From Bacteroidota bacterium (GTDB lineage: Bacteria; Bacteroidota; Bacteroidia; Bacteroidales; CAIXZF01), in assembly GCA_022709385.1 (NCBI GenBank), contig JAKLIX010000006.1, positions 1-64,000 of the forward strand: 64,000 nucleotides of DNA, written 5' to 3'. Under the pieces are notes generated by a model. It saw only the letters and a program-made list of their open reading frames with translations. It searched no databases and had not been told where the DNA came from. Position numbers and translations under genes: made by a program. Position 1 is the stretch's first letter; each line of letters opens with the position of its first letter. This document shows positions 2,918 through 33,879 of the stretch, one piece after another.

Positions 2918-5900
2918 TCAGGGGATGAATGGAATGTATGAGCCATTGACATCTCCGGTACACAGGGCAGGGACGATCACTGTGACCCCCTGGTTGTCCA
3001 CTGTGAAGCCGGCTTCCCCGGATATCCAGGGTCCTGCGGGGAAGGACTGCAGCTGTCCGGTGAAATATTTCTGTACGTACAGCGCATCCAGCGAATTGAT
3101 ATACTGGTTGTGATCAACATCTGCAGCCAGGGCGTAAAGTCCTTCGAGCGTACTCAGCCTGACAAAATGTCTCAGAATCTGCAGGGCATCGGTGGAGTTG
3201 ATGCCGCCCGCAGGCAGTTCGGGTCTGCAGTAAATCCTGTACTGACCAGAGGGGATATGCGGAAACTGGAAGCTTCCGCTACTGGAACTGAGGGTCGAAT
3301 CCAGTTTATTCCGGAGGGTATCGCAGAGGAAGACCCTGACAGCGGCGAGGGAGGTCTGCTGGGAATTGGCATAGACGATGTGGCCGTTTACGGTGTAGTC
3401 GTGGTAATAATCTGCGCTGTCGACCCAGAGGATGCTGTGGTTACCGGGCGGAATGCAGGCTTCGTATCCCTGATCAGCATGGGTAAGTGCTGCCTGAACT
3501 GAATCGATCAGCATGACCGGGGTCATGGCGGGAAAGTCAAAGCTAAGGGTATCCGCGGTGCTGCACCAGCTTTTACCGTCGAGGATGTTTCCGTTGCGGC
3601 TGACCAGGCAGTTGCCGTGACGGATTCCCAGGGTGCATTCAGGTGTGGTCCATATCCTGCCGTTTCCTGCCCAGAGCCTCCAATGCAGGCTGTCGTAGGC
3701 ATGAAGCAGGCAGATGCCTTTTGTGCCCGCCTGTTGCATGCTGTCGGCAGCAGCTTCAAAGAGGGCCGTCAGCATACCGGGGAAGCAGCCGCTTAATTTC
3801 AGGCAGCTGTCGTTGCTGCAGATCACATTCAGCTCGCAACTGTCGGTGGCTACCAGCAGGTTCCGGATGCGGCCATACCTGGCTGTGATCTGTTGTTTCA
3901 GCATGAACCCGTAATTGTAATAGCTGAAGTCGCTGTTATAACCTCCTTCAGGTTTTGTTTCCGGCACATAGCGGAAGGTGTCGAGGGTGGCCGTAAAAGC
4001 TGAATAGAGCGGGAATATTCCCAGTTGCATGCCGAGGGTGTTATGCCGCCAGCCTGCATTGATCGCGCTGAAAGTGTTTTCGTTTCGGATGGGGCGCAGG
4101 TACGACCAGGTTCCGGGGTACAGTTTCCATTGAACGCCGTGGAGCAGGCAGTCATATTGCAAGGTGTCACTTCCGGCCACTTCGTCCAGCAACAGGAAGA
4201 AAACCGTGTCCATCATGATCAGGTCCCGTTTGAAGGTCTGCAGTTCCGGTTCAATATAGGAGGCGGAGGCATTCCCGCTTGCATGCAGAAAGCCGCCGGC
4301 CTGCCTGACGCTTGTCAGTTTCCCGTCTCTGTAATATGGGGGGGCGCTGAGCCATTGGGTTCCTTCATTCACCTGGCCGGTTTGGGAAACCAGCAGGGTA
4401 TTATGTTCGGCGGTGTATTTTTTATAGCTGTAGCCGGGATCGATGGCCAGGGGGATCCCTTTTCTGGCCAGGATAAAAGAATTCAGATCCGGCTGGGCAT
4501 GGCCTCCCATCATGGCGCCGCATTTGAAAGCGAGGTAGTTGTTGTCGCCTGACCAGGATGAGCGGTGAAAGACCAGGCCGAGGGTGTCGAAGCGGGCAAA
4601 GCGGGGGAGGGAATCCGCGGAAATGGCCTCAATGCTGTCGTTATAAAAAATATAGGTCCATGGATTGGTGAAATTTTCATAATACTGTTTTGTGATCCAT
4701 TGGGCCAGCGGGTCCTGCAGGATATCTGCCGCGAGGGCCATATAATAGCGGGGCATGCTCCAGCCAAGCAGGGGGCAATCTGCAAAATTGGCCAGTAGGT
4801 ACCTGTCCTGGGGCAGTTTCGACCCATGGATCATGCTTCCCAGTTCATAGTCCGATGCTCTTTTCAGCCAGAGGCTTGTGTCTATTGGCGACCATCCGCA
4901 TGCTTTTCGCCTGGCAGCCATCCATTTAGCCAGGTTCTGGAAGCCGTAGGCATGGTAGCCCGGGCCTTCGTGGCTGCCGCCATCCGGCGGCAGCGCCCTG
5001 GCAACCTGCTGTAAGTTAAAAATGGTACAATCCAGCCAGCGGTTGCGTTCATCCGCCGGTACTTCGCCATCAAGCAACCTGGCTGCCATTTCAATGGCTG
5101 CATTGTTGATCCAGTAATGATTGTTGGTGAGGGTGCTTCGTGTCGACCAGTCGATGACCGGATACTTCCTCATATAGTAGCTGCCATACGAAGGATGTGT
5201 CCAGTCGTTGGCCTCTTTTCGGATGAATTCCCGCAACTGCCTTCGTTCCGACTGGTTCCACCTGGGGTAAAGCCAGTCGTAGGCGCAGGCCAGTCCCATC
5301 AGAAACTGGCTGTGGGTAAGGTCCAGGTTATTAAACGCCTGGTCGTATAAACCTTCCTCGTATCCCCATTCGGGGTAGTTCATGATGTTGAAGACGTATG
5401 CCCGCAGGATATTCCAGTCTGTTTCGTTCCATTCCAGCAGCAGCCGGAAGGCAAGCGCCTGCATCCTGTGTTCGTATCCCCTGATATCCATGGCATTGGC
5501 ACCGGTCTGTATGGGTGCGCTTCCGTTATTGTAATAATACCGTATGCTGTTGATTTCGTTCAGCAGGCCGTTCCAGAGGGTCTGGTGAAAGCCCGTGAAC
5601 CTGCTCCCCCGGTAATGTGTCACATCGGAAGTATCGAAAAAAAGGCAGGGATGCACAAAGTTTCTGACCACGAACTTTCTTTGGATCAACGATGTGTCAC
5701 ATTGCACCATCAATGTCCAGACTCCTGTGTCAGAGGGGTTTGGGAATGTGAGCACCGAACTTTGCCACAATTTGCTTCCTTGCAGGGGAACAGGTAAAAG
5801 GGTGTACAGCATGCTGTCGGGACTTACCAGCAGCATGCTCAGGACAGGAGGAAGCAGGCTGTCTGCGGCCGGAGTTGAGACCATTACCCGGAGTGAGTCA

Positions 5901-7207
5901 TCCCCGGGGATAATATCCATATTGTTGGGATACAATATGTTGCAGATCTTGTTTTCTGTCGAGAGCTGATTGACAGTCAGGCAGGCGGCATTGCACTGGC
6001 GGATCAGATCGTCGGTTTGTCCGGCTGCGTAACAGTTCCGCAGGCAAAGTCCGTCGGCATGATAGCCGTAAGAATCGAACATATCGAAACAGAGCGGTGA
6101 AGGTTTGTTGATGCGGATCACACCCTTGTTGTGCAGGAGGGAGCCCAGGGCCAGCTGGTGACTGCTGTCGCTGAGGATGAGATAACGCATATTTGTATTC
6201 CACTTTTGCCATAGGCTGTCCCAGCCATAGGCATTGGAGTACATTTTATGGTAGAAGGCTGCCGGAGTGTAAAAAGCGCGTTCCGCCCAGTACACCGGGC
6301 AATCGTTGGGTATAAAGTATTCAATATCAGAAGAATCCGGGATGGCTATGATACTTTGCTGGACAAAAGGCAGGCCTTTGGGTATAAGGTATCTGAGTTT
6401 CACCGTGAAGGGGATAGCGGGAGCCGGAGCGAAATCAAGTGTCACATCGGCGGCGGCGGCGGTTTTTTTGATGCAATGGCCGGTGATCGGCCGGTTGAAC
6501 TGTATGGAATAATCGGTGGAAGTGCCCTGTTTTCTGATGGTCATGCTTGTACCGCTGCTGAGCATGCCGGAACAGAGATTCGATGTGACACATGGTGGCT
6601 GCGATGTGTCACATTGCATTCTGAGGCTGTTTTTGCCGGCCTGTAAACCGGTAAAAAGTTTTTGCTGGCTTTCGTTGATCCTTCGTAAAAGCTCTGTTAT
6701 ACCGTTACTTAGCCTAATCCGGTCAGGCAATCCGTTTTGATTGGTGTCTTCCATCTGTACGCTGGCCCACAATGTGTCACATTGAAAATTCAATGTGTCA
6801 CATTGCGGCGCATCGCTCAGGTAGAGGCTGAGGGTATCCGCTTCGTTGTCCGGACAGGGGGGAAGTACGCTTAAAGCCTGGAAAGCTTTATTACCCAGGG
6901 AGCTGATATGCACCGGCAGAACTGAACCTGAACGATTGATGATGATACCCGACTGTGGTTGAAATGAATCAGGAAGATCATTCATCACATAACAAAACAA
7001 ACGGTCGGTGATGCTGTCACCGGAGGCAGCCAGGCTGAAAGTCAACCTCCAGTCTGCCGCGCTGCACTGCCAGGGGACAATCTGAGGATTCTGGGAATTT
7101 GCGGTCGTGCAAAGCAGAAGAACAAGCAGGCCGCTCATCAGGCAATGCCTTCCGGGCGCACGCAGCCTCGGTGGCGGCAGGCCGGAAAGGTAAATCAGGC
7201 TTCGCAT
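2918..7207 (-). CDS. Secreted heparinase II/III-like protein with C-terminal dockerin-like domain
   Basis: The 1429-aa product probably cleaves an acidic or uronate-containing polysaccharide by beta-elimination. A hydrophobic signal segment lies at about residues 24-38; an internal ATG at 7138 is an alternative start. Residues 40-500 are not recognised. An alpha-helical toroid follows (about 530-860) with NNH at 695-697 and EGPGYHAYG at 747-755, then a beta-sandwich containing GGHAQPD (H903, D907), the usual heparinase II/III active-site pattern. Residues 1270-1330 resemble a Cna/CarboxypepD-like fold. Residues 1334-1385 contain two dockerin-like repeats (GGINSTDAL and ADVDHNQYINSLDAL), and GDVNGSY lies near the end. 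There is no T9SS sorting domain, so the dockerin may provide attachment. It is the last gene of the operon, 18 bases after the caspase gene. Seven palindromic 11-mers lie inside the gene (5613-6805). The enzyme class is well supported; the substrate is unknown. Confidence 0.82.
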   Translation of the reverse strand: MRSLIYLSGLPPPRLRAPGRHCLMSGLLVLLLCTTANSQNPQIVPWQCSAADWRLTFSLAASGDSITDRLFCYVMNDLPDSFQPQSGIIINRSGSVLPVHISSLGNKAFQALSVLPPCPDNEADTLSLYLSDAPQCDTLNFQCDTLWASVQMEDTNQNGLPDRIRLSNGITELLRRINESQQKLFTGLQAGKNSLRMQCDTSQPPCVTSNLCSGMLSSGTSMTIRKQGTSTDYSIQFNRPITGHCIKKTAAAADVTLDFAPAPAIPFTVKLRYLIPKGLPFVQQSIIAIPDSSDIEYFIPNDCPVYWAERAFYTPAAFYHKMYSNAYGWDSLWQKWNTNMRYLILSDSSHQLALGSLLHNKGVIRINKPSPLCFDMFDSYGYHADGLCLRNCYAAGQTDDLIRQCNAACLTVNQLSTENKICNILYPNNMDIIPGDDSLRVMVSTPAADSLLPPVLSMLLVSPDSMLYTLLPVPLQGSKLWQSSVLTFPNPSDTGVWTLMVQCDTSLIQRKFVVRNFVHPCLFFDTSDVTHYRGSRFTGFHQTLWNGLLNEINSIRYYYNNGSAPIQTGANAMDIRGYEHRMQALAFRLLLEWNETDWNILRAYVFNIMNYPEWGYEEGLYDQAFNNLDLTHSQFLMGLACAYDWLYPRWNQSERRQLREFIRKEANDWTHPSYGSYYMRKYPVIDWSTRSTLTNNHYWINNAAIEMAARLLDGEVPADERNRWLDCTIFNLQQVARALPPDGGSHEGPGYHAYGFQNLAKWMAARRKACGWSPIDTSLWLKRASDYELGSMIHGSKLPQDRYLLANFADCPLLGWSMPRYYMALAADILQDPLAQWITKQYYENFTNPWTYIFYNDSIEAISADSLPRFARFDTLGLVFHRSSWSGDNNYLAFKCGAMMGGHAQPDLNSFILARKGIPLAIDPGYSYKKYTAEHNTLLVSQTGQVNEGTQWLSAPPYYRDGKLTSVRQAGGFLHASGNASASYIEPELQTFKRDLIMMDTVFFLLLDEVAGSDTLQYDCLLHGVQWKLYPGTWSYLRPIRNENTFSAINAGWRHNTLGMQLGIFPLYSAFTATLDTFRYVPETKPEGGYNSDFSYYNYGFMLKQQITARYGRIRNLLVATDSCELNVICSNDSCLKLSGCFPGMLTALFEAAADSMQQAGTKGICLLHAYDSLHWRLWAGNGRIWTTPECTLGIRHGNCLVSRNGNILDGKSWCSTADTLSFDFPAMTPVMLIDSVQAALTHADQGYEACIPPGNHSILWVDSADYYHDYTVNGHIVYANSQQTSLAAVRVFLCDTLRNKLDSTLSSSSGSFQFPHIPSGQYRIYCRPELPAGGINSTDALQILRHFVRLSTLEGLYALAADVDHNQYINSLDALYVQKYFTGQLQSFPAGPWISGEAGFTVDNQGVTVIVPALCTGDVNGSYIPFIP
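5613..6805. repeat. Cluster of palindromic ATGTGWCACAT motifs inside a gene
   Basis: The 11-mer ATGTG-T/A-CACAT occurs with cores at 5615-5625, 5692-5702, 6583-6593, 6604-6614, 6772-6782 and 6793-6803. A one-mismatch copy lies at 6437-6447. Several copies extend to the 15-mer CAATGTGACACATTG. They are read in different protein frames (Gln-Cys-Asp-Thr, Asp-Val-Thr-His, Cys-Val-Thr-Ser), so DNA rather than protein sequence seems conserved. A further copy is at 29843-29853. Confidence 0.7.
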
Positions 7208-7225
7208 TTGAGGCGAATGGGTTGG

Positions 7226-10200
7226 TTATTTCTTCAGGTGAAAATAGAATTGACCCTTGCTGTCCGGAAAGTCGGGCATATTCGAGAACTCCGGGTTCTG
7301 CTGCCCTCCGGTCTGATTGCTCACCCTTTCCTGCACAAACATCGCCACCCTATAAACAGAAACACTGGGTTCCTCATTGCCTTCGAGGCATTTAATGAGA
7401 TAATAGGCGAATGGGCTGTTGTTGGTACCCATGAACTGGTCCATAACCTGTTCGTCATGCATGCCGCTGGCCAGCACGAAACGGCTGGGCATGGACTCCG
7501 TACGGCTGATGTTTTCCTCTCCCGAGGCCCTGCTGGTGATCAGTCCGGCAAAACAGGCATCAGAGAATAAAACCGTATGCAGCGGATTAATGGATCTGAT
7601 CCAGGTTCTGAGGTCACTGTTGCTGATATAATCATATTGTGCATCCAGCTTACCGTCGTAAGGAACCCAGTAATAGTCCCTGATGGCCTGCGTAGTATCG
7701 CCATGCCCGGCATAGTAAATCACAAGCCTGTCTTTGCGCCCGATGATCTTGCTCAGTCTGGCAATGGTATTGTAGATATTTCCCTTCGTAACTTCTTCAT
7801 TAAAAAGCGAATACATATGCAGACTGTCGAATTCGTAGCGCTCGAGCAACACCCTGGCAAACGCGCGGGCATCACTGACGGCTGATTTCAGCTTAGGCCA
7901 GTGACGGTAATTGTCAACCGCAATCAGTAATAAGTAGTTATGATAGTCGGTGGCGGTTTTTATTTGCTTCCTTGCAGGACTGAGTGGTTCGGTTCCCCTG
8001 CTGGTTTGCTGCCCCTTCACTTCAGCCGGAATTTGAGTTCCGGCAGCAACGACATGATCGCTGCCGCTTTCCTGAACTACGAGTGTGTCATAGGAGTATG
8101 GCAGGAGTGCTTTGAGGCCGGAATGCTGCATGGACTTCAGATCATCCGACAAGCGCTGGGTCGCAAACAGGGTAACTTTGCGCCATTCTTTCTCGAGCAT
8201 GAGCCCCTTGGCTTGATCTATCCCATTGATAAAGAATGACTTATCTCCAAGCATAAACTGGTAGCGGCCGCCTGCCTGGTCGAATTGTCCAGAACGCGTG
8301 ATCATGAGTTTTGCAGGTTCACGCGACTTCTCAATTTCCTGTTTTGCCAGTTGTCTGAAAAGAATCTGGCAGTCCTCCATGATGCCGTTTACCATTCTTT
8401 GTGCCTGTACTTCGCGAATGCGGTAATCAGCAAGCGACTCTCCCACAGCCTGTAACGACAGATCGGGTTTTTGTGCGCTGAGCTTGTTGCAGATACAATC
8501 CGACAGTTTGGCCATCACCCTTTGGTAAGGTATATCCATATTCAATTTCAGGCTGTCGCCCAAACTGAAGGTGAAGGCGGGTTTTAGTGAAAAGATCTTC
8601 CTCACGTCTTCGAATACGCCCTGAAACTCCTTTTTTTCCAGACGATGCAATATCCTGATAAACCCTGCATTATCCGCAACCTCCGCTATGCCGGCGACAT
8701 CCCGGAAGTACTTCTCCAGCTGATCATCCATGCCTGAAGCCAGAAGGGCGAATCCCAGTCCGCTGATCAGTTCAGGGTCTTTGTTTTTACCGCTGGTCAA
8801 AGCCTGGAACATCGGGATGGCCTGTTCGTAGTTCTCAAGGGAAAAGGCCGTATACGCCCGGTATTTTAGAAGTGAAGGACTATCGGCAGCCCCTGCATTT
8901 TGCCTGAAGAAATCATCGGCTGCTTTCTGATATTCACCGAGAAAGTAATGGCATTGCCCTCGTTTCTGGAACCAGGCAGGCTTGGGATCGGTCCGGATAA
9001 GCATATCCAGTTCGCCGACTGCGTCCCGGTAACGTCGAAGATGCATGAGGGAGGTAATCCTGGGTTCGAGCAGGGCTGAGTGGTTTTTTATTCTGGGCAG
9101 CAGGTCTGTCAATATATCTCCGGCCTGCCTGTAATCTTCCAGTGAAGTCAGGTTCTGCACCTTCAGGGATAAGGCAATCGTGTCGCCGGGATTGAATGCC
9201 AGGTAGTTATCCACATCTGACAAGGCTTCCCGGAACTGATGCTGCCTGTACAGGATGGAAGCCCTGAGAAGAAAATTGTCGGGATGCTTGTGGTTCAGGC
9301 GTATCGCCTCATTCAGATCGTAAAGGGCTTCATCAGTCTGATCCAGTGAATAATATGCCTTTCCTCTGAGGCTGTATGCTTTGGCCGTAGGATGGTTTTT
9401 CACAACGGAACTGAGCATATCCACGGACTGCCGGTACTGTTTCAGCTGATATGCGGCAAGGGCCTGATCATACTGCCAGTCGGCAAGCATCGCCCGCAGG
9501 TTATATACCTGAAGCAATACATTGTTTTTATTCACGGCCACATATTTGCCGTCCTGACTCACTGCCAGCAGGGGGTTGATGGCACCTTCCAGTTGCACGG
9601 CAAACAGTTGTTTCCTTTCTGTCACCTGCGTCAGTTTGAAGGTTTGATCAAACGAGCGTGACAGCAGGAAGGCTCCCTGGGGGGCAAAGACCAATTCGGA
9701 TACCTGATGGGTGTGCAATGTCTCCTGCCAGAGATCCTGCTCCGTTTTGAGGTCTCTGAGAAAGACGTTGCCGCTGGTGTTGCCAATTGCCAGGTAACGG
9801 TCGTCAGCGCTGAGGGCAAGGGCTGAAATACTGCCGTAACGGGCCGGAAGGATAGCAAGCAGTTTTTTTGTCTGATGATGAATGATCTCCAGGCTGCCAT
9901 CACCGAATTGAACCAGCATGGCGGGTGTATTCACGAAGGGGAGTATTCTCCTGACAGGCCGCCTGGCATCATCTGCATACACTTCCGACCTGGCCTGTGT
10001 AATGGTGTTCCATGAATAAACCCGAGAGCCTCCGGAGTAAAAGAGCGAATTGCTGAAAGGAATAAATGAACAGCTGAGGCATTCTTCCCTGCAGTCAATG
10101 CTTCCGAATGCCAGCCCTGTGGTAAACTCCAGTGCAAACAAACGGTTTGCGCTTCTGAAAACCATGCTTCCCGAGGATGAGGTAAGAATCTGTCTGATGG

Positions 10201-10438
10201 CAGCATGTTCCCACTGGCCGGGCAGTTGCCGGTTGGTTCTCGCTTTGATACTGTAAAGGAAACTGCTGTTGTCGAGCCGGATATTGACAAGGGTGTCCGA
10301 ATATTTCCCGAATCCCAGGGCAGTGATAAATCCGCTCTGAAGGTTTTCTTCCACCACGAGATATTGCGCCGGCAACCTCAGGTTGCTGAGGAGGACCGTT
10401 GCAGAAAGCAGGAGGAACAGACGGAAGGCACCGGGCAT
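7226..10438 (-). CDS. Exported beta-propeller/TPR/caspase-like protease
   Basis: The 1070-aa protein has a signal peptide (about 1-24). A WD40-like propeller follows (about 25-320, with repeats such as LALSADDRYLAIGNTSGNVFLRDL), then tandem TPR units (about 325-560), an unassigned region (560-840) and a C-terminal caspase (peptidase C14) domain (about 845-1060). The catalytic dyad is intact: His912 in YYAGHGD and Cys962 in SDACFAG. Caspase-fold proteases of this family usually cut after Arg, Lys or Asp, and the propeller and TPR units probably bind partners or substrate. The start ATG lies 8 bases after the stop of the upstream gene, so the two are co-transcribed. Location outside the cytoplasm is inferred from the signal peptide. 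That is notable because defence-type bacterial caspases are cytoplasmic. Substrate unknown. Confidence 0.85.
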   Translation of the reverse strand: MPGAFRLFLLLSATVLLSNLRLPAQYLVVEENLQSGFITALGFGKYSDTLVNIRLDNSSFLYSIKARTNRQLPGQWEHAAIRQILTSSSGSMVFRSANRLFALEFTTGLAFGSIDCREECLSCSFIPFSNSLFYSGGSRVYSWNTITQARSEVYADDARRPVRRILPFVNTPAMLVQFGDGSLEIIHHQTKKLLAILPARYGSISALALSADDRYLAIGNTSGNVFLRDLKTEQDLWQETLHTHQVSELVFAPQGAFLLSRSFDQTFKLTQVTERKQLFAVQLEGAINPLLAVSQDGKYVAVNKNNVLLQVYNLRAMLADWQYDQALAAYQLKQYRQSVDMLSSVVKNHPTAKAYSLRGKAYYSLDQTDEALYDLNEAIRLNHKHPDNFLLRASILYRQHQFREALSDVDNYLAFNPGDTIALSLKVQNLTSLEDYRQAGDILTDLLPRIKNHSALLEPRITSLMHLRRYRDAVGELDMLIRTDPKPAWFQKRGQCHYFLGEYQKAADDFFRQNAGAADSPSLLKYRAYTAFSLENYEQAIPMFQALTSGKNKDPELISGLGFALLASGMDDQLEKYFRDVAGIAEVADNAGFIRILHRLEKKEFQGVFEDVRKIFSLKPAFTFSLGDSLKLNMDIPYQRVMAKLSDCICNKLSAQKPDLSLQAVGESLADYRIREVQAQRMVNGIMEDCQILFRQLAKQEIEKSREPAKLMITRSGQFDQAGGRYQFMLGDKSFFINGIDQAKGLMLEKEWRKVTLFATQRLSDDLKSMQHSGLKALLPYSYDTLVVQESGSDHVVAAGTQIPAEVKGQQTSRGTEPLSPARKQIKTATDYHNYLLLIAVDNYRHWPKLKSAVSDARAFARVLLERYEFDSLHMYSLFNEEVTKGNIYNTIARLSKIIGRKDRLVIYYAGHGDTTQAIRDYYWVPYDGKLDAQYDYISNSDLRTWIRSINPLHTVLFSDACFAGLITSRASGEENISRTESMPSRFVLASGMHDEQVMDQFMGTNNSPFAYYLIKCLEGNEEPSVSVYRVAMFVQERVSNQTGGQQNPEFSNMPDFPDSKGQFYFHLKK

Positions 10439-10446
10439 GGAAGGAG

Positions 10447-12819
10447 CTAAATTACAAATAATTTTCTGATTTCCTGAGGTTTATTTATGTTTTTCAATTG
10501 TTTGATCAGGTAAGAGCAATCATCCGCAGCATATGAGTTCACTTTTTTAAGGAAGAGTATGAGGTCTTTTCCCAGATCAAGGCTTTCCTCCGGTGTTTTT
10601 GCATCGCGGTATTGAGAGAAGTAAAACTTATATGCCGTTTCACCCCGTTTTGCCACTAGTTTTCGTTCTTTGTTTTTACGGTAAAGTTGACGGAAACGCT
10701 CATATTCAGCCAGTACCTCCTGATGCCTTTCACTGATTTCGGGCTGTCTGTGGTCGAGAATCCGTATCTTTTGCCTCAGGTCGCGGCATTGCTGAAGGAG
10801 TTTGTCGGCGGCCGGTACCTGCTTAAAGTCATTGTATTGTTGTCTGATTACGTCCACCTCTGACTCGTAAATACCCGGGTAATCCTCTTTGTAATGCTTT
10901 TTTACCAGCGGGAGCAACCCGGCCAACAGGCTGTCGATCGCCACGATGGTATCGTAACTGCTGTTGATATAGTCAAGATGTTCGACTATCATGCGGCCCT
11001 TGTTGATTCTCATCTCGAGAAATTCTGCCTTTTTATATTCACCGAATTCGCTTTTCAGACCGCTGATCTCCTGTTTATTGATCCCGCTGTATCTTTTCCT
11101 GTAAAGCTTTCCTGTCCTTTCCAGCATGGTATCGATCCTGATCATCTGGTCCTGCAATTCATTGAAGTCTGCATCCCTGTGGCGCAACCATGTCAGGATT
11201 TCCCTGCCTTTGCCCAGCTTGGCCGAAGTCTGGGCGATGTTTTTATATTGGTTGACATCTGCTTCCTTAGGTTCGATTTCTTTCAGGTAGATCTTTTTGT
11301 AGAACTTCTGGTAATTTGCCTTAATCCTTGGTAATTCCGACTGGATTTTACTGTCATAAAAACGAAGGCTGTCGATGCTGCTGCAGAGCGGAGTGGCTTC
11401 ACGGACAAGGACACTGCCCTGCCTGATCTTATCATCGAGCCTGTCAGTCTTGTCATAGGCGGCCAGCCTGATCAATATGGGATCAATCTCATGCTGGTAA
11501 ATGTTCGGCTGATTGTCCTTGTAAAAGCTTACCGCATCAGGGAAGACGGTCGTAAAGAACTGTTGCTGCCGGCTGAGGGTGTCGAATTTATCACTCAGCG
11601 AAGCCAGTTCCCTCAGCACCTCACGGCCAAAGCTGACTTTTTTTTCAATGAAGGACAGTGTGTCATAGTTGCCTGTGTAAGTCCGGATATGGTTCAGATC
11701 CTGCTGAAATGCATCCGGGAAATGTCTTTTGAATTTTTCAAACAAGGGATCCGACAAACGATCGATCAGGCTGTCCTGCTGCCTGAGTTCCTCATAATAC
11801 CTTTCAAAGGGTTCAGTTGACCTGAGCAGTCCGGAACCCATGCCCAGCTTCAGCTCCAGGGAGTCCTCACTGTCGTAGACCCTGGTGATGCTGTCAAGCA
11901 AGGGCAGGATGCTGTTGTTGTAAAGAACCAGCATGCTGATTTTATTCGCATAATGACTGGTAAGAAAGTCCTTGCGTCTGATCAGCAGGCTGTCTGTTTC
12001 GAGCAGTTGTTCACACAAGGGCTCAATTCTCCGGATCTGCCTTGCCAGGTGAAAACTCATTACAAACTTTTCCTCTATGGAGTCGTTCGCCTGGTATTTA
12101 CTGATATCCCCGATCAGGTACTTCAGTTTTCCGTTAAACAGCGAAGGAAGCCTGCTGCTGTAGTATTGGCCGGTGCGGGTCGCGAACTGGCTGATGATCC
12201 GCTCGTTCTCACTGAATTCCGTGATATTCTCCGACATACTGAAAAACTTGTGAATCAGGTACCTGCCAAGCTCATTCAGCACCTTTTCCCCATCCGCTCC
12301 GATATACAGGCGTTCTATTTTGAAATCGTGTTTCAGCAGGAAATCCCGGTAGGGTTTAATTTTTTCTACATTCCTGGATCTCAATATGTTATGCAGGGAA
12401 TCGACAATCTCCTTTGCACGGCCCGGGGGAAGGTGCTTATCGGTGATTCCATCTTGTTTTCTTTCATAATTCATGATCAACCGGCCCTGGATGTCTGTCA
12501 GGAAATGGAAGTACCAGTAATTTTCCGGATCCAGATAATATCCGATGTATTTCAACATCCCGCTGAATTCATCCCTCTCCATCTTCCTCCCGGTCTCCCT
12601 TCCGTCGTTATATTCGATTTCAGTCAGCAGCATGCCTGTCTCACTGTAAAAGGCGTAGGTTCCGTGCCGCACCGAAGGATCTCTTTCCAAAACCGTATAA
12701 GATTCTCTGACAGATTGCCTGGTTGCAGGATCGTAATATTCTGTGATCCTGGTCACTTGTGCAATCAGGGCCTGGACCGGGAGCAGCAGGCATAGCAGAA
12801 GTGGAAGGTGGTAGTACAT
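10447..12819 (-). CDS. Exported long-helical protein of unknown function
   Basis: I do not recognise the family of this 790-aa protein. It begins with a signal peptide (about 1-21). A short region (about 25-125) resembles MORN/YwqK-type repeats (YDPATRQSVRE, HGTYAFYSETGMLLTEIEYNDGRETGR). The rest is highly charged and almost certainly alpha-helical, with recurrent spacing of Leu, Tyr and Asp-Ser-Leu (for example RIEPLCEQLLETDSLL). Possibly these are repeated helical bundles or coiled coils. It sits between two caspase genes, 60 bases after the first and 8 before the second. It is therefore a candidate scaffold, substrate or regulator of those proteases. That role is inference from position only. 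Confidence 0.7.
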   Translation of the reverse strand: MYYHLPLLLCLLLPVQALIAQVTRITEYYDPATRQSVRESYTVLERDPSVRHGTYAFYSETGMLLTEIEYNDGRETGRKMERDEFSGMLKYIGYYLDPENYWYFHFLTDIQGRLIMNYERKQDGITDKHLPPGRAKEIVDSLHNILRSRNVEKIKPYRDFLLKHDFKIERLYIGADGEKVLNELGRYLIHKFFSMSENITEFSENERIISQFATRTGQYYSSRLPSLFNGKLKYLIGDISKYQANDSIEEKFVMSFHLARQIRRIEPLCEQLLETDSLLIRRKDFLTSHYANKISMLVLYNNSILPLLDSITRVYDSEDSLELKLGMGSGLLRSTEPFERYYEELRQQDSLIDRLSDPLFEKFKRHFPDAFQQDLNHIRTYTGNYDTLSFIEKKVSFGREVLRELASLSDKFDTLSRQQQFFTTVFPDAVSFYKDNQPNIYQHEIDPILIRLAAYDKTDRLDDKIRQGSVLVREATPLCSSIDSLRFYDSKIQSELPRIKANYQKFYKKIYLKEIEPKEADVNQYKNIAQTSAKLGKGREILTWLRHRDADFNELQDQMIRIDTMLERTGKLYRKRYSGINKQEISGLKSEFGEYKKAEFLEMRINKGRMIVEHLDYINSSYDTIVAIDSLLAGLLPLVKKHYKEDYPGIYESEVDVIRQQYNDFKQVPAADKLLQQCRDLRQKIRILDHRQPEISERHQEVLAEYERFRQLYRKNKERKLVAKRGETAYKFYFSQYRDAKTPEESLDLGKDLILFLKKVNSYAADDCSYLIKQLKNINKPQEIRKLFVI

Positions 12820-12879
12820 AACATGGAATTGGGATTCGAATATAAGAAAATTGGAGGCAGTTTGTATAATGCTTAGAAA

Positions 12880-14862
12880 TTATTGTTCGTTTACGATTTC
12901 GATCACGGTTTTTTCGAGGGATGAACGGTACTGCCCGGCCTGTCCGCGCCGGCCTGACCATGCTGACTGATCAGTCTGCAAAGGATTCCAGGCATTCAGT
13001 CCTTCGCCCCTGTATTGCCGTCCGTCCGTCATCATCTGCAGCTGTCTGCGGAGGTCTGAAGGCTGGTTCTGGCAATAAATCAGATAGACTTCCTTCCCGC
13101 AGGGTTCTGTGAGTCTGAACAGCTTGTTCAGCATCAGTTCCGAGTAGGCCGGAAGATAGTAATCCGCAGCCGCTTCCCCCTCCAGGGGTAACAACACATT
13201 CACCCTATGGTCGGCACTGACGTTCAGGATGGTGAAGAAGCAGGCCATCCGGCCCCGGTTGGAGATTCTGAAGCTTATGGTGTCACCAACCTGATACAGG
13301 GGTGAGTGACCGGATGCTTCCTTCTGACTACTCAGCCTGATGACTTCGATTCCGGGTTTGATCTCCCTGCTGTTCAGATTTGATTGGAGCAGGTTTCGCG
13401 CCATTGCATTTTGCCTGATCCTGGAGATGACCTGCCTGGCGAAGGTCTCAATGCCTGTGTGGTCGCCGGATCCTGAAATGCTTGACCTGTAAAGCAATGC
13501 ACCGTCAGGGCCGTGCAGCATCAGGTACTCGGCGGCCTGGTGGAGGCTGTCGCTGATGATAAAACCAGGGGTGTTTCCTTCGGGCTGAATGAAAGATTCA
13601 TGTTGCAGCAGGGAAAGTATCTGCCGCCGGATTCCCGTGTCGGTAAGGGTAATGGTACAAAGCCCGGAGGCTTCGTCCGGAGTGGCCTGCAGGTATGCAA
13701 CCCAGGCTTTCAGCAGCCTGTTTCTGTTTGTCTTATTGTCGAGTTGCAGACTGGCGGTAAACGGGTAGGACCGGACGACTTTCGCCCGGCAAAGCACTAC
13801 GGCGTTGCTGTCGCCGGGGAAGCCTTCCATTACGCTTGCCAGCGAGCCCGTCGTAAATCCGGCATAGCTGCCCCCGTCGATCAGGATCAGGCTGTCGCCG
13901 CTTACGGAAAGAATACTGTAAAACGCTAGTTGGGGCTGGTCGCTGTTCCCGAACACCCGGGCTGCCGCATCCCCTTCCATTCCGGGATCCTGCGACGGTA
14001 TTTCCAGCATGCGGATTCGGATCATTTCGAACAGGCGGCCGCAGGTGACGGCAGGTCCGGCTGCTGCCAGGGAGGTGGCCAGGGCATGGCTGAAAGCCCC
14101 GCTTTGCTGTTCCGGCAATTCGACAGCAAGCTGGTACGGCCTGCCGGCAGTCAGGACCGACAGCCTGGCCGAATGGCGGGATTCCTGTGTGTCACTGTCA
14201 AAGGCCAGCAATTCCTTTTTCCCTTGTTCCGGGACGAAGGCCGGTGCCGCCATCGGGATAGAGGTGCCGCGGACAAGGTGATGCAGGCCTGAACGGCTGA
14301 TACCGCCCGAAAAGCATGCATCCACGGTAAACAAAAGGCTGCCGTCAGGGCCCAGTTTAAGACGCAAGGTGTCAAACAACTGTGCCAGGGCATCATCGCT
14401 GAGATGTTTTTCCCCTTCGTAAACCCCTTTCTCGTAGGTTTTCCGGGCGTCAAAGGGAACGAGGGCTTCATCGAATCCGTCCGGCTCATCGCCATTCCGG
14501 TCCTGCATGCGTTGCCCGTGACCGGAGAAATGGATAAATATCCGGTCGCCCGGCCGGGATTCATCCGTCAGTTTCATCACAGCGGCCACAATGCCTGCCC
14601 TGGTTGCCTGCCGGTCCTCCAGCAGACGAATGTCAGCGGAATCAAAGCCCCGGGTCAGGAGAACTTCCCTGATCATTCCAAGGTCGTTGGACGAATGAAG
14701 CCGGTTCCAGCCGCTGAGGCTGTCATATTGCGAGATACCGATCAGCAGGGCTTTCTGACGCGATTGTCCTGATGCACCCAGACCCGGTAAAAGGATGGCA
14801 AACAGCAATATCAAAGGAAGAAAACGACTTAATCTGCAGGGAAACAGCAATGCACTATTCAT
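12880..14862 (-). CDS. Exported caspase-family protease with DUF4384-like C-terminus
   Basis: This is a 660-aa protein with a signal peptide (about 1-33). A metacaspase-like p20 domain follows directly (about 35-290) with an intact dyad, His115 in HFSGHGQ and Cys183 in DACFSGG, plus the acidic loop DRNGDEPDGFDEALVP typical of type I metacaspases. A poorly recognised middle region (300-490) precedes a DUF4384-like beta domain (about 495-600; ISNRGRMACFFTILN and VNVLLPLEGEA). DUF4384 is often found beside peptidase or kinase domains in envelope proteins. The ATG lies 3 bases after the lipoprotein gene stop, so translation is probably coupled. It is the second of two active-looking caspases in one operon and may process the other or a shared substrate, which is inference. 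Confidence 0.85.
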   Translation of the reverse strand: MNSALLFPCRLSRFLPLILLFAILLPGLGASGQSRQKALLIGISQYDSLSGWNRLHSSNDLGMIREVLLTRGFDSADIRLLEDRQATRAGIVAAVMKLTDESRPGDRIFIHFSGHGQRMQDRNGDEPDGFDEALVPFDARKTYEKGVYEGEKHLSDDALAQLFDTLRLKLGPDGSLLFTVDACFSGGISRSGLHHLVRGTSIPMAAPAFVPEQGKKELLAFDSDTQESRHSARLSVLTAGRPYQLAVELPEQQSGAFSHALATSLAAAGPAVTCGRLFEMIRIRMLEIPSQDPGMEGDAAARVFGNSDQPQLAFYSILSVSGDSLILIDGGSYAGFTTGSLASVMEGFPGDSNAVVLCRAKVVRSYPFTASLQLDNKTNRNRLLKAWVAYLQATPDEASGLCTITLTDTGIRRQILSLLQHESFIQPEGNTPGFIISDSLHQAAEYLMLHGPDGALLYRSSISGSGDHTGIETFARQVISRIRQNAMARNLLQSNLNSREIKPGIEVIRLSSQKEASGHSPLYQVGDTISFRISNRGRMACFFTILNVSADHRVNVLLPLEGEAAADYYLPAYSELMLNKLFRLTEPCGKEVYLIYCQNQPSDLRRQLQMMTDGRQYRGEGLNAWNPLQTDQSAWSGRRGQAGQYRSSLEKTVIEIVNEQ

Positions 14863-14865
14863 GAT

Positions 14866-15852
14866 CTACCTGATATTCATGCGGTTCAGCAGCTTTTCCA
14901 GCAGGTGTGATTCCAATTGGTCCACATAGGGATCATAATCGAACGGAATCTTCTTTTTCCTGCTCACGGCCCCGTTTTCCGTAATATTGACCGTCAGCTC
15001 GTACATGCCTTTTCCGTAACAGGGCTTGTAGATTTCGGGCCCCGTTTTCAGGTGGGCCACCGAGCGCGGTACGAGAAAGCAGGAACCCGGCAGGAGGCTG
15101 TCCTTTAATTTCTCAAAGTAATCACGGTAGTTCTTAGTGGAAGGATCCATGGGGATGTCATCGAGCCTGAGGCTGAAGCTTCCGAGTTTCACCTGGTCGA
15201 AGAGGGTGCTTTGTTCGTTCATCCAGGATGCCTGGATGCTGACACTCAGGTCGAGTCCGAATTTCGGCCGGCGGTAATAACCCCAGGACAGGGGTTTCAG
15301 TAATTGGCGTGATTTGATCTTTGCCCTGCTGTAACGGATAAACATGCTGTCGAGCCTCAGGCGGAAACGGCCGTTGTTCATGATTTCCAGCGGCTGGTCG
15401 CGGTCGATGGAGAAGGAAGCGAAAAAGGCCGTGTCCCTTTTGCCATCCCTGGCTTCCACGGTACGCACCACCTTCAGGCCGCGAAACTGTATGCCGTCCG
15501 GATCGGTCATGCTCCTGAGCGATACATCCCGGTAAAAAGACAATTGCGACTGGCCTCCGCCGTATGTGGCAGTGTATTTCGAAAGATCTTCGGTGAGCAG
15601 GGATTTCACCGATCCGAAAGCATAGGTAAACGTCTGGGTCACCATCGGCAGGAGAAGTGCCGCCCCCCTGCCGGCCAGGCCGGGTGCGGGTTCCTGCTGT
15701 ACCAGCACATCGAGACCGAGGTAATCAGGATCGTTCATTACTTCCACACGGATCTCTTCCCCTTTGGTGTGGCGGGTTAATTCGGGAGTGGCACAGGCTG
15801 TCAGCAGGAGCAGGGATGTGACAGTCAGGATCAGGACTTGCACTGGCTTCAT
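14866..15852 (-). CDS. Lipoprotein of unknown function, first gene of the caspase operon
   Basis: The 328-aa product has a type II signal peptide ending in the lipobox LLTAC (Cys at about residue 20). The mature protein is therefore lipid-anchored, most likely at the outer membrane. No named domain is recognised. It appears mainly beta-rich, with a middle region in two similar strand-rich halves and a helical C-terminus (VDQLESHLLEKLLNRMNIR). It heads an operon of five exported proteins and could anchor the complex. A TATATTTG box lies 30 bases upstream of the ATG. Confidence 0.75.
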   Translation of the reverse strand: MKPVQVLILTVTSLLLLTACATPELTRHTKGEEIRVEVMNDPDYLGLDVLVQQEPAPGLAGRGAALLLPMVTQTFTYAFGSVKSLLTEDLSKYTATYGGGQSQLSFYRDVSLRSMTDPDGIQFRGLKVVRTVEARDGKRDTAFFASFSIDRDQPLEIMNNGRFRLRLDSMFIRYSRAKIKSRQLLKPLSWGYYRRPKFGLDLSVSIQASWMNEQSTLFDQVKLGSFSLRLDDIPMDPSTKNYRDYFEKLKDSLLPGSCFLVPRSVAHLKTGPEIYKPCYGKGMYELTVNITENGAVSRKKKIPFDYDPYVDQLESHLLEKLLNRMNIR

Positions 15853-20388: not shown

Positions 20389-23300
20389 TTACCTGATTTG
20401 GATTATTTTACCATCTGTGATCGATGATTTATTTCTTGAGTTAACAATATATTCAAAAAAGTAAATTCCCGGGCCTGCTTCCAAAGAATTCACGATAATC
20501 TTATTATTTCCACGTGTTTGCCTGTCGTAGAAGTATGTCCTTAATAATTGACCGGTGACTGAGAATAAATTAAGAGTGACAGAAGCGTCTTCATCTAAAA
20601 AATAATGTAGTTCTGTCTCGTTTGAGAATGGATTTGGGAAAACACAAACCTCATTATTTTCATTTCCGGTGAATAGAATCTTAGAGTGAAATAAGCAGAA
20701 AGTCTCATATGATTTGGCCTCTGAATCTGTAATATTGCTTTCAGGCCCGGTCGCAAACAATGGAGATGTGAAATCATGCAACAAACTGAAATGCAAGCTA
20801 AGCAAGACATCTCCGGGTTGTACAAGGGCAGGAGCAATATTATACCAGGCAATCCTGATCTGATCGTTCGACTGGTGAAAATCCAATACTCCTCCTAATT
20901 CCGTTGTAACATCATGGCACAACAGCAATTCTGAAGAAACATTAATAACAAGCGAGACAGACCCGATTTCAGCTTCCTGACCTGATAAGAGTGGGAGGAT
21001 TATATTTTCCCTTCCCCGGACAACAATTGTTGAGTTTTCCTCAATATTTACCATGGGTGTTATCTTAGCAGCGGGAGCATATGAACCATTTACGTCTCCA
21101 TAGCAAAGAGTCATAATATTCTGAACAATATTGTTACCATTCAACACCACAACTGGCGATTCAAAAGCCCAGTCGCCCGCAGGGAATGAACTGAGTTGCT
21201 GTGTAAAGCGTTTTGCGATCATTAGAGCATCGACTGAATTTACCGTGCCTGATATGTTTACATCGGCTGCCTTCAACCTGATTCCGGTGAGGAGTGATAA
21301 ACCTGTGAAGTGCTTCATTACAATTAAAGCATCAGCAGAGTTTGCTCCTCCCCATGGCTTTAGACACTGTCCATCGAGAGCATATGTTCCATCCGGCATA
21401 TTCTGAAATTGATAAGAACCTCCGGCATCAGTAAGTGTTTGGCTTATGACAGTATTATTTTGTTCAAGAAGGATCATTGCGTTTCCGATTGGTGTATTCG
21501 TTGTGTTATTATATGTAAGCTGACCGTTAATGTTATTGCAATATTCAACTGTAACCGTCTGGTTCTGAAATATTGATGGAATGATTTGATCGTCAATGTC
21601 CACATACTGACATGCTTCGGGAGTGAGGAGATCCCAGGTTAATGAAGAATAACCTGCTGAAGCTGTAAAGTTTAGTTGGATAAGGGTGTCGTTACTGATG
21701 CTGAATGGCAACAATGAAAACCATGCAAGGATGATATTATTGCTGTCCTGATTCACCTCAAGAATCCCATTGCTCAAAGATGGATGCACTTGCTGGTAAC
21801 CCTGGTATGTGAGTATGTCCGGACTAAAAAGTATAGTCAATGAAATGGCTGCTACATCAATTGCATTTTGAATTACGATCGGTACATTCAAATTTCCCTC
21901 ACAGGCTTGTGATAGCGAAAAATAGGTGATAATGCTTTCGGGAGAGGGATCAGTTCCTGTTCCTTCCAGCAATGTAAAGACATTATTGCCAGTGCCCTGT
22001 AATGTTCCTGATAAGATTACTGATTTGATTCCTGAGGTATTTGGACAGAACTGCACACTGATGCTTTGTTGATCACCCGGATTCAGTATGAAGTTACCGC
22101 CGCCTGATACAATCTGAAATGCTGTAGTATCAGGGCCTGACAATTCGACACTTCCGGAAGCGGGAAGTGTTCCGGTGTTGGACAGGATGAATTCCTGTAT
22201 GGCAGAACAAGTACCAACGGGAATGTCTCCAAAATTGAGGTAGGACGGGCTTAACGCCACCACCGGATAAGTTACCGTGTTGAAGCTCCAGCTGTAATTG
22301 CTGTCCAGTGTATTGTTATTCAAATCCCTGACTCCCGAATTGCCTGCCAATATCAGCATTTCATATAAAGTGCCGGGTTCAAGCATTCCCGGATCAAAAA
22401 CCAGGCGTTGGCTTGCCGGATAATATGTCAGCGACAATGGCATCACAACTGTGATTCCATTTTTAAGCAGAAGAACTGAGTTTGAATTTATGGAGGAAGC
22501 ATTTATGGGGATATCAAACGCAGCGACAATCGTGTCTCCAGTTGAAATGTTTGTCGCATTATCTGCTGGATAAACTGAAATAACATGCGGTGCATGCTGG
22601 ATGACCAAAACGGTATCAAATTTTTCAATGCTCTGGGGAGAATTGTCGTTGTCAGTAGCATGGATTTCATAAGGAAAGAATCCCGTAGGTCTTGGTGACA
22701 GGATACAGTAATAGTGTCCTTCCGATTCCTGTATGCCTTCAATCACCGAATCATTGTCAAACATGAGGTAGGTGTTTCCAATGCCGGAATCGTCAGTCAC
22801 CTGCCAGTCGAATCGAATCGCTTCATTGTCCTCTATAAGGCCGTCATTATCTCCGGTGAATTCTTCATGCGTATTCGACAGGATAATTGGAGGTTGCTCA
22901 TCATTGTCAGTAATGATGATGGGCTTAAAGCAAATATTATTTGTTTCATCGGATTCTTCAATTGAATCATTGCGGTCAACGATCACATAAAGATTATACT
23001 GTCCGGTCTGGGAGAAAACCAGGTTAAGGGTAATTAAGCTGTCTGCACCTTCTTCAATGACCGGTATCGTAAGGGAATCGATGAGGTTTCCCTCTGAAGG
23101 ATCTGAGAGGTAAAACTCAACAGCAATTTCCCCTGCCGTTGCGTTACCCATATTTCTGACCAGCATGGAAATATTTACGACATCATTATCTGTAGGATTC
23201 TCAGGTGTAAATGACAGGTTATTTGCAGCAACCTCCAAATCCGGCAATACGGGAGGGACCTCATATTTCCATATCTGGAAATGGTCATCCTGGCTGATAA

Positions 23301-28567: not shown

Positions 28568-29236
28568 AGTAATATTATAACGAAAATCCGCCATTCCGAC
28601 AACAGGTCGGTTTGGGTGAGGGAGCGGCAGTTACTGTTGAGGGAAGCCTCCCCTGATTTGAGGGAAGGGCTTGCGTGGCATGATTAATCCGGGCTCTGAA
28701 CGCCCGGGGAAATATACTCAAGCTTGACAGCTTTGCGAATGCATAGCTGTTTAGCATGCGTAATGCCGTACACCGCTCTATTGAGGATTTTTCGCAAAGC
28801 CGCTCCGTGTCGGCATTTTACAGCCTGATGACCTGGGTCGAGGGATCGGCCGACTCATAGGCAATAAGTCTCAGGGGGATATCGGGATAATGCTCATGGA
28901 ATGTCTTGTATTTCGATGTTTTGACTTCCGTGATGCTGAATTTGCATTCAAATGCGCTTTCCTGACCGATGGCAGGCTGTACGATAAAGTCAATTTCTCT
29001 CTGGTCAGCCGTTCTCCAATGAAGGATCTGATCCCCCCCGTAAAGCTGTCGCAGTCTTATAAACAGATAGTTCTCAATAAGTTGTCCCTTGTCGATCCGG
29101 GCCTGCGGTTTATCAAAATAATTCAGCAGGCTGTTCCGGAGTCCGATATCATGAAAATAGACCTTCGGCATTTTCGTAAGCTCATTCCTGATGTTCCTTA
29201 AGAAGGGCCTGACCAGCCTGATATAATATGATTTCT
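28568..29236. repeat. 669-bp direct repeat, copy 1
   Basis: This stretch is nearly identical to 32394-33062 (offset 3826), with only scattered mismatches. It contains a non-coding spacer with a 105-bp palindromic element and the 3' part of a DUF4143 ATPase gene. The identity stops abruptly at 29236/33062. Confidence 0.92.
28713..28816 (+). repeat. 105-bp dispersed palindromic element, copy 1
   Basis: One of five copies in the window. It starts TATACTCA, holds an imperfect 21-bp inverted repeat (ACTCA...CTTGACAG facing CTGTTTAG...), then GCCGTACACC, TTTTTCGCAAA and an ending CCGTGTCGG. It abuts the stop codon of the truncated DUF4143 ATPase. Copies 1 and 2 are more diverged from the other three. 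Confidence 0.8.
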
Positions 29237-29249
29237 TCAGAAAATACAC
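28818..29249 (-). pseudogene. Truncated DUF4143 ATPase (3' fragment)
   Basis: About 140 codons match the C-terminal third of the intact ATPase at 32644-33879 almost residue for residue (KMPKVYFHDIGLRNSLLNYF, then HWRTADQREIDFIV). The whole AAA+ part with the Walker motifs is missing. The homology breaks at 29236, and the GTG at 29249 lies in unrelated sequence, so this is a duplication remnant rather than a functional gene. Confidence 0.85.
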
Positions 29250-32393: not shown

Positions 32394-33062
32394 AGTAATA
32401 TTATAATGAAAATCCGCCATTCCGACAACAGGTCGGTTTGGGTGAGGGAGCGGCAGTTACTGTTGAGGGAAGCCTCCCCTGATTTGAGGGAAGGGCTTGC
32501 GTGGCATGATTAATCCGGGCTCTGAACGCCCGGGGAAATATACTCAAGCTTGACAGCTTTGCGAATGCATAGCTGTTTAGCATGCGTAATGCCGTACACC
32601 GCTCTATTGAGGATTTTTCGCAAAGCCGCTCCGTGTCGGCATTTTACAGCCTGATGACCTGGGTCGAGGGATCGGCCGACTCATAGGCAATAAGTCTCAG
32701 GGGGATATCGGGATAATGCTCATGGAATGTCTTGTATTTCGATGTTTTGACTTCCGTGATGCTGAATTTGCATTCAAATGCGCTTTCCTGACCGATGGCA
32801 GGCTGTACGATAAAGTCAATTTCTCTCTGGTCAGCCGTTCTCCAATGAAGGATCTGATCCCCCCCGTAAAGCTGTCGCAGTCTTATAAACAGATAGTTCT
32901 CAATAAGTTGTCCCTTGTCGATCCGGGCCTGCGGTTTATCAAAATAATTCAGCAGGCTGTTCCGGAGTCCGATATCATGAAAATAGACCTTCGGCATTTT
33001 CGTAAGCTCATTCCTGATGTTCCTGAAGAAGGGCCTGACCAGACTGATATAGTATGATTTCT
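32394..33062. repeat. 669-bp direct repeat, copy 2
   Basis: This is the partner of 28568-29236. Here the repeat holds the 3' end of the intact DUF4143 ATPase gene and the non-coding spacer beyond it, including palindromic element copy 2. It marks a duplication of the junction between a LytTR gene and the ATPase gene. Confidence 0.92.
32539..32642 (+). repeat. 105-bp dispersed palindromic element, copy 2
   Basis: It is identical or nearly so to copy 1 because it lies within the 669-bp repeat. It abuts the stop codon of the intact DUF4143 ATPase, which suggests a transcript-end or insertion-site role. Confidence 0.8.
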
Positions 33063-33879
33063 GGAGTATATATAAATATTGGTCGATAGTCCTGGCATTG
33101 TAACTGAGAGTTCTTGCCAGTTCATTGGTATTGATCAGCTTGCCCGTCTGATGGGCAAGCAAAACGGCAAGCCTGTATACTTTCAGATAGTTGCTGTTTT
33201 CCGATTCGAATACATCCTTTTTCAGATAGGTTTTTACCAGTTCACCCAGCATGCTTTGCTTTTCCCGGGGATCTTTTTCCGAAACCACTGCGGGATACCC
33301 GCCGAACACGAGGTATTCATCAAAGGCTGCCCGGAGTTCCCTGGAACGAAGGGAGCGGTAAGCTGGCTTTTCCCTGAGCAGCTTGGTTTCTTCAATGAGT
33401 GCCGTTCTTTCACTTAGCTCCAGAAACTCTTCAAAATCAAGTGGAAACAGTTCGTATATCCGCATTCTGCCTGCAAGGCTGTCTTTGAACCTTGTGTCGA
33501 GATAGAAGGCACTGCTTCCCGTTGCGATGATTTTCAAGCCTGCGCCATGTAGGTCGTAGAGGTATTTAAGAAGGTTGGAAGGATTGGCGCTTAGCTGGAT
33601 TTCATCGAGTAACAGATATAATTTCGATCCGGAAGCGATGTCGGCATTCTGGGGCATATCCCTGAGATATCGCAGCACGTTTCCGGGATGTTCATCGACT
33701 GCAGCCAGTACCTCCGGATCCTCCAGGGTCAGAAACTGCGTGCTTTCCTTCCTTTCCCTGAGTTCCTGTTGAATCTGTTTCAGTAAAGTTGTCTTACCTA
33801 CCTGCCGGGCTCCGGTTATCAGGATATACTCCTTACGTAACAGACTATCAAGAATGGTGGTTAAGAGTTTCCTTTTCAT
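32644..33879 (-). CDS. DUF4143-family AAA ATPase
   Basis: The complete 411-aa ATP-binding protein has a Walker A motif GARQVGKT (23-30), a Walker B motif LYLLLDEIQ with D92 and E93, a sensor-like IIATGSSAF, a winged-helix-like middle and a C-terminal DUF4143 domain with a nuclease-like HWRTADQREIDFIV (E-I-D plus later E-C-K). Such proteins are common in Bacteroidota, often in multiple near-identical copies, and their function is not established. The C-terminal motif resembles restriction-type nuclease folds. A TATATTTG box lies 15 bases upstream. Its 3' third is duplicated at 28818, and another, more distant remnant lies at 34110. Confidence 0.9.
   Translation of the reverse strand: MKRKLLTTILDSLLRKEYILITGARQVGKTTLLKQIQQELRERKESTQFLTLEDPEVLAAVDEHPGNVLRYLRDMPQNADIASGSKLYLLLDEIQLSANPSNLLKYLYDLHGAGLKIIATGSSAFYLDTRFKDSLAGRMRIYELFPLDFEEFLELSERTALIEETKLLREKPAYRSLRSRELRAAFDEYLVFGGYPAVVSEKDPREKQSMLGELVKTYLKKDVFESENSNYLKVYRLAVLLAHQTGKLINTNELARTLSYNARTIDQYLYILQKSYYISLVRPFFRNIRNELTKMPKVYFHDIGLRNSLLNYFDKPQARIDKGQLIENYLFIRLRQLYGGDQILHWRTADQREIDFIVQPAIGQESAFECKFSITEVKTSKYKTFHEHYPDIPLRLIAYESADPSTQVIRL

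Follow-up and report, generated by a model that had tools for sequence, protein, structure and literature searches.

Five open reading frames (ORFs) lie in a row on the minus strand of the window, the 64,000-nucleotide stretch of Bacteroidota DNA analyzed here. In order of transcription, they encode a 328 amino acid lipoprotein (g1; 14866–15852), a 660 amino acid caspase with a DUF4384-like C-terminal region (g2; 12880–14862), a 790 amino acid helical repeat protein (g3; 10447–12819), a 1070 amino acid WD40/TPR/caspase protein (g4; 7226–10438), and a 1429 amino acid heparinase II/III-like lyase with a dockerin-like tail (g5; 2918–7207). A preliminary description of this locus had proposed a single operon of five exported proteins, and the ORF list reproduced its intergenic gaps of 3, 60, 8, and 18 bases exactly. 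An alternative start for g5 at its second methionine, M24, which is closer to the hydrophobic segment, would widen the g4–g5 gap to ~87 bases. A scan for the Bacteroidota promoter pattern was uninformative. The surroundings of the operon include a nitric-oxide-reductase-like gene (recognized by eye) as well as PrsW-like and histidine-kinase-like genes.

The proposal that all five products carry export signals held up: each has an N-terminal hydrophobic segment in a hydropathy scan, and g1 has a lipobox (LLTAC). The signal peptides are putative, being called from hydropathy and conservation. Beyond the N-terminal segment, the hydropathy scan found no second transmembrane-grade segment in any of g1–g5. 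The orthologous or linked caspases and trypsin-like proteases that we checked in other genomes likewise have a single N-terminal hydrophobic segment.

Both g2 and g4 match Peptidase_C14 (PF00656) above the Pfam cut-off of 21.4 bits (g2, 2.3e-16 and 60.6 bits; g4, 2.4e-21 and 76.9 bits). As first reported, the His-Cys dyads are intact (His115/Cys183 in g2 and His912/Cys962 in g4); they lie in an SGHG/DAC context and are invariant in orthologues. The S1 aspartate of g2, Asp60, is also invariant in orthologues and has its equivalent in Asp856 of g4; the S1 role of the acidic residues Asp60/Asp181 (g2) and Asp856/Asp960 (g4) is one that we presume from knowledge of metacaspases. The PDB sequences closest to g2 are metacaspases (2.4e-13), and g2, a metacaspase-like enzyme, is predicted to cleave after Arg or Lys. 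Its DUF4384 region reaches 16.4 bits against a Pfam cut-off of 27 and is thus weaker than had been implied; in a related g2-type caspase at locus L089, DUF4384 scores 33.4 bits, over the same cut-off. Besides its C-terminal caspase domain, g4 has matches to a WD40-type propeller (THOC3-type; 1.2e-14) and TPR_1 (1.4e-13) in Pfam.

In a tree of caspase domains, the metacaspase-like g2 type separates from the g4 type, which is linked to WD40 or TPR domains. The g2 proteins of this genome (G000) and of G001, which represents another genus and was the sole further member of the family that we compared, are sisters with support of 0.96; the g4 proteins of the two genomes likewise pair as sisters, with support of 0.74. 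Both caspase types occur in several genomes that carry g1 (G000, G001, G378, G681, G559, and G585). The S1-region Asp, His, and Cys are all retained in nearly every complete caspase domain at g1-linked loci; the exceptions are pieces cut by the end of a locus and the second domain of G546, which appears degenerate.

The gene at the head of the operon has no relatives in Pfam, NCBIfam, or the PDB sequences. Its AlphaFold2 model is beta-rich (pLDDT 71 overall and about 85–95 in the beta core), and this moderate-confidence model matched no PDB fold at E ≤ 0.001. Homologues share 27–36% identity, and 16 full-length members could be aligned over an invariant core that includes a PRS motif. Judged by its sequence, g1 is an outer-membrane lipoprotein of a new family. 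Within the order, profile searches found relatives in 7 of 393 genomes, five of them full-length, and within the class in 14 of 395; in a sample of the phylum, strong matches were limited to this class. A collection-wide scan with g1 returned the G001 contig alone because the conserved stretches are short. An apparent g1 match near a G559 caspase (locus L096) was dropped, as it is a beta-lactamase-family lipoprotein. Separately, a 503 amino acid protein of another Bacteroidales genome (G244; L026:9289–10800) contains the g1 domain core at 65 bits, and its neighbors resemble, by eye, TPR lipoprotein, FHA-type, and TIR-type proteins; a non-caspase use of the domain is possible there.

The preliminary description had suggested looking for the five-gene neighborhood in other Bacteroidota genomes. 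All of g1–g4 recur in G001, with identities of 38%, 43% (over 295 amino acids), 30%, and 27%, respectively, and g5 does not. The order differs: in G001, the genes form convergent pairs, g1–g2 on one strand and g3–g4 on the other. That all four were rearranged and yet kept argues for a functional linkage beyond one operon. Of the caspases in these two genomes, the two of G000 are both in the operon and the three of G001 each lie beside g1-family lipoproteins.

The linkage between g1 and exported caspases extends across the class Bacteroidia. By neighborhood reading and a caspase profile, a caspase gene lies within ~5 kb of g1 in 10 of 13 genomes and 8 of 11 families (G000, G001, G378, G202, G027, G681, G559, G428, G585, and G546); no caspase was found near g1 in G468 or in the f172 family (G489 and congeners, G676). 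Chance would give such adjacency in 0.17 of the 13 genomes, for a P of about 1e-17 by genome or 1e-13 when each family is represented by a single genome, under a rough model that counts caspases per genome and places them uniformly; observation and expectation are nonetheless far apart. Every one of the 14 well-supported g1 genomes has a caspase, compared with 86 of 217 genomes of the class (40%), most of the genomes surveyed being draft assemblies. Three genomes of the same genera that lack g1 have zero (G103 and G237) or one caspase (G816). The exported two-caspase set is thus co-inherited, conserved in a second genus and, via its lipoprotein, across the class.

The third gene is distributed more narrowly. 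Following a weak N-terminal MORN_2 match, beyond which the family is absent from Pfam and NCBIfam, g3 consists of about eight 70-residue helical repeats, with autocorrelation peaks at lags of 70, 140, 210, and 280. Its AF2 model places a long-plus-short helix pair every 70 residues, with pLDDT of about 80–93 over most of residues 410–620, and this moderate-confidence model had no significant match in the PDB. On the strength of the model, g3 is probably an extended rod or scaffold. A full-length orthologue was found in G001 only, which also has a g3 paralogue elsewhere, within a few kb of a gene related to the nitric-oxide-reductase-like neighbor of the G000 operon. We rejected g3 as a class-wide marker, the matches being short N-terminal ones in the MORN-type region. 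The protein is essentially confined to this family and is therefore not a general component.

Where in the envelope might these proteins act? Surface lipoproteins of Capnocytophaga, Bacteroides, and Flavobacterium carry an acidic export signal after the lipobox cysteine (consensus K-(D/E)2, SDDDD, or SDDFE; PMC5080379). The residues that begin at this cysteine in g1 are CATPELTRH, and relatives have CASYKYSNK-like sequences; neither g1 nor its relatives show the acidic signal of that consensus. These residues being non-acidic, g1 is likely to sit in the outer membrane on the leaflet that faces the periplasm. A search with NCBIfam found no T9SS C-terminal sorting domain in any of the five proteins, and we rejected the idea that the caspases reach the surface or leave through the T9SS. 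Of the periplasmic or surface location first suggested, surface exposure is unlikely; with neither type of surface signal found, we assign the system to the periplasm, with a tether in the outer membrane.

The four-gene set and the class-wide g1–caspase linkage together suggest a protease system in the cell envelope. The reading that we favor, with slightly less than even confidence, is that g1–g4 form a regulated, periplasmic, outer-membrane-tethered two-caspase proteolysis module that works without NTPases. In such a module, the products would form a complex: g1 would anchor or regulate the other proteins at the outer membrane, on its periplasmic side, g3 would serve as an elongated scaffold, and the propeller and TPR repeats of g4 would bind an envelope signal or substrate, with g4 recruited to active assemblies. 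The partner or downstream protease would be g2, with its presumed preference for a basic P1 residue, and a cascade between the two caspases is possible. The most likely role would be signal-gated cleavage of envelope proteins, in a stress response or regulated proteolysis. Among the observations that sit awkwardly with this reading are the f172 genomes and G468, where g1 stands alone, and the near restriction of g3 to one family.

The periplasm contains no ATP. With no NTPase in the set either, the switch cannot be of the STAND or MoxR type known from described conflict systems (PMC7159879, PMC8195603). Activation would instead be nucleotide-independent, through assembly, Ca2+, or trans-cleavage. 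A bolder version, which we regard as quite unlikely, is an apoptosome-like cascade in the periplasm, also nucleotide-independent, in which g4, mounted on a helical scaffold that the lipoprotein anchors, would detect an envelope signal and switch on g2, which would then carry out envelope remodeling or programmed lysis. The animal apoptosome likewise combines a propeller with two caspase types (the WD40 domain of Apaf-1 with initiator and effector caspases), but the analogy is functional only: the operon has no NTPase and no CARD, and its propeller and caspase are joined in one exported chain, g4.

Further partners of an envelope type recur at related loci and favor the module reading. An exported trypsin-like (Trypsin_2) protease gene directly precedes a g2-type caspase gene in G585, G489, and G559 (L055:6113–9644, L089:2484–5980, and L096:5618–9173), which suggests that this putative pair is conserved in its own right. 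In both G378 and G468, genes for a CHASE2 membrane protein and for an exported, unnamed protein of ~300 amino acids come after a caspase gene (L023:5173–9214 and L090:4538–12043), possibly as an inner-membrane sensor arm. Sigma factors are encoded near g1 in G027 and G202.

The alternative that survives best, although we consider it rather unlikely, is a housekeeping maturation protease that constitutively processes exported or outer-membrane proteins after Arg or Lys, with g1 as its anchor and with neither gating nor cascade. The intact active sites, with a predicted basic-P1 type of pocket, would suit such an enzyme, as would the pairing of exported trypsin-like proteases with caspases and the apparent housekeeping genes that adjoin the solitary g1 in f172. 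A patchy distribution, with g1 in 14 of 395 genomes of the class, fits this explanation poorly, and so do the sensor-like WD40, TPR, and CHASE2 domains and the sigma factors at these loci.

We hold it distinctly unlikely that the locus is a conflict or anti-phage module, or one for programmed lysis, with the caspases as envelope death effectors. Caspases are common effectors of NTP-dependent conflict systems (EACC1, STAND, and MoxR-vWA), which share propellers and trypsin-like proteases with the loci described here, and CHASE2 also occurs in EACC2-type proteins (PMC7159879, PMC8195603). Scores of g2 and g4 with the PADLOC caspase model are weak (49 and 41 bits), whereas no PADLOC defense model matches g1, g3, or g5; a defense system was rejected on the basis of these weak, single-protein caspase matches. 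In contrast to the conflict systems, all products of the operon are exported, and the five genes include no NTPase, cyclase, EACC1-type, or nuclease partner; the NCBIfam model caspase_w_EACC1 scores 61.5 and 33.2 bits on the two caspases, far under its cut-off of 140. The genes that surround the operon, described above, likewise speak against a conflict module.

The last gene of the operon stands apart. The heparinase II/III-like domain of g5 is confirmed (Hepar_II_III_C, PF07940; 45.9 bits against a Pfam cut-off of 24), and its Dockerin_1 tail, at 21.7 bits against a cut-off of 22.9, is weaker than had been implied. Its C-terminal 161 amino acids have 97 matches across the genome of 4.08 Mb, with identities of roughly 31–48%. 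The module, which occurs on the minus strand at 2921–3403 within g5 and again at 21073–21534, combines a CarboxypepD_reg/SdrD-like part with a dockerin-like repeat and ends in GDVNGSYxP; it is probably a sorting or anchoring tail used genome-wide. With so many copies, the dockerin-like tail is part of a module spread over the whole genome and is not particular to this operon. We found no g5 match in G001 or at any other g1 neighborhood examined, so the five-gene system with a polysaccharide lyase that was initially envisaged did not survive, and g5 is probably co-transcribed yet outside the conserved module. A five-gene operon for polysaccharide degradation, with the lyase matured or regulated by the caspases, is therefore largely refuted and very improbable, despite the 18-base gap between g4 and g5 on the same strand and the lack of a terminator-like site between them on the operon strand (in a terminator scan that was uninformative overall), given the absence of g5 from every other g1 or caspase locus and its genome-wide tail.

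Work on bacterial caspases has mostly concerned cytoplasmic effectors of signaling or death that are controlled by NTPases. An exported module of two caspases that recurs together with a dedicated lipoprotein family would put caspase proteolysis in an ATP-free compartment. The closest known proteins are the prokaryotic metacaspases, or orthocaspases, which share with g2 and g4 the C14 fold family, the His-Cys dyad, and WD40 and TPR partners; the consulted part of a 2012 survey notes N-terminal helices that are in some cases likely signal peptides, and operons with multiple metacaspases in Bacteroidetes, and does not describe a recurrent lipoprotein-linked exported module such as g1–g4 (PMC3501461). 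The open-licence literature that we searched held no description of the g1 family or of an exported two-caspase module, an absence that is not proof of novelty. The g1 family provides a handle to sort many unannotated Bacteroidota caspases, and the gene sets defined here allow direct tests of substrate, trigger, and caspase–caspase activation.

Elsewhere in the window, a 143 amino acid ORF at 28818–29249 shares its C-terminal sequence with a 411 amino acid ORF at 32644–33879, an apparent ATPase with a KTTLL motif, and thus looks like a truncated duplicate of it.
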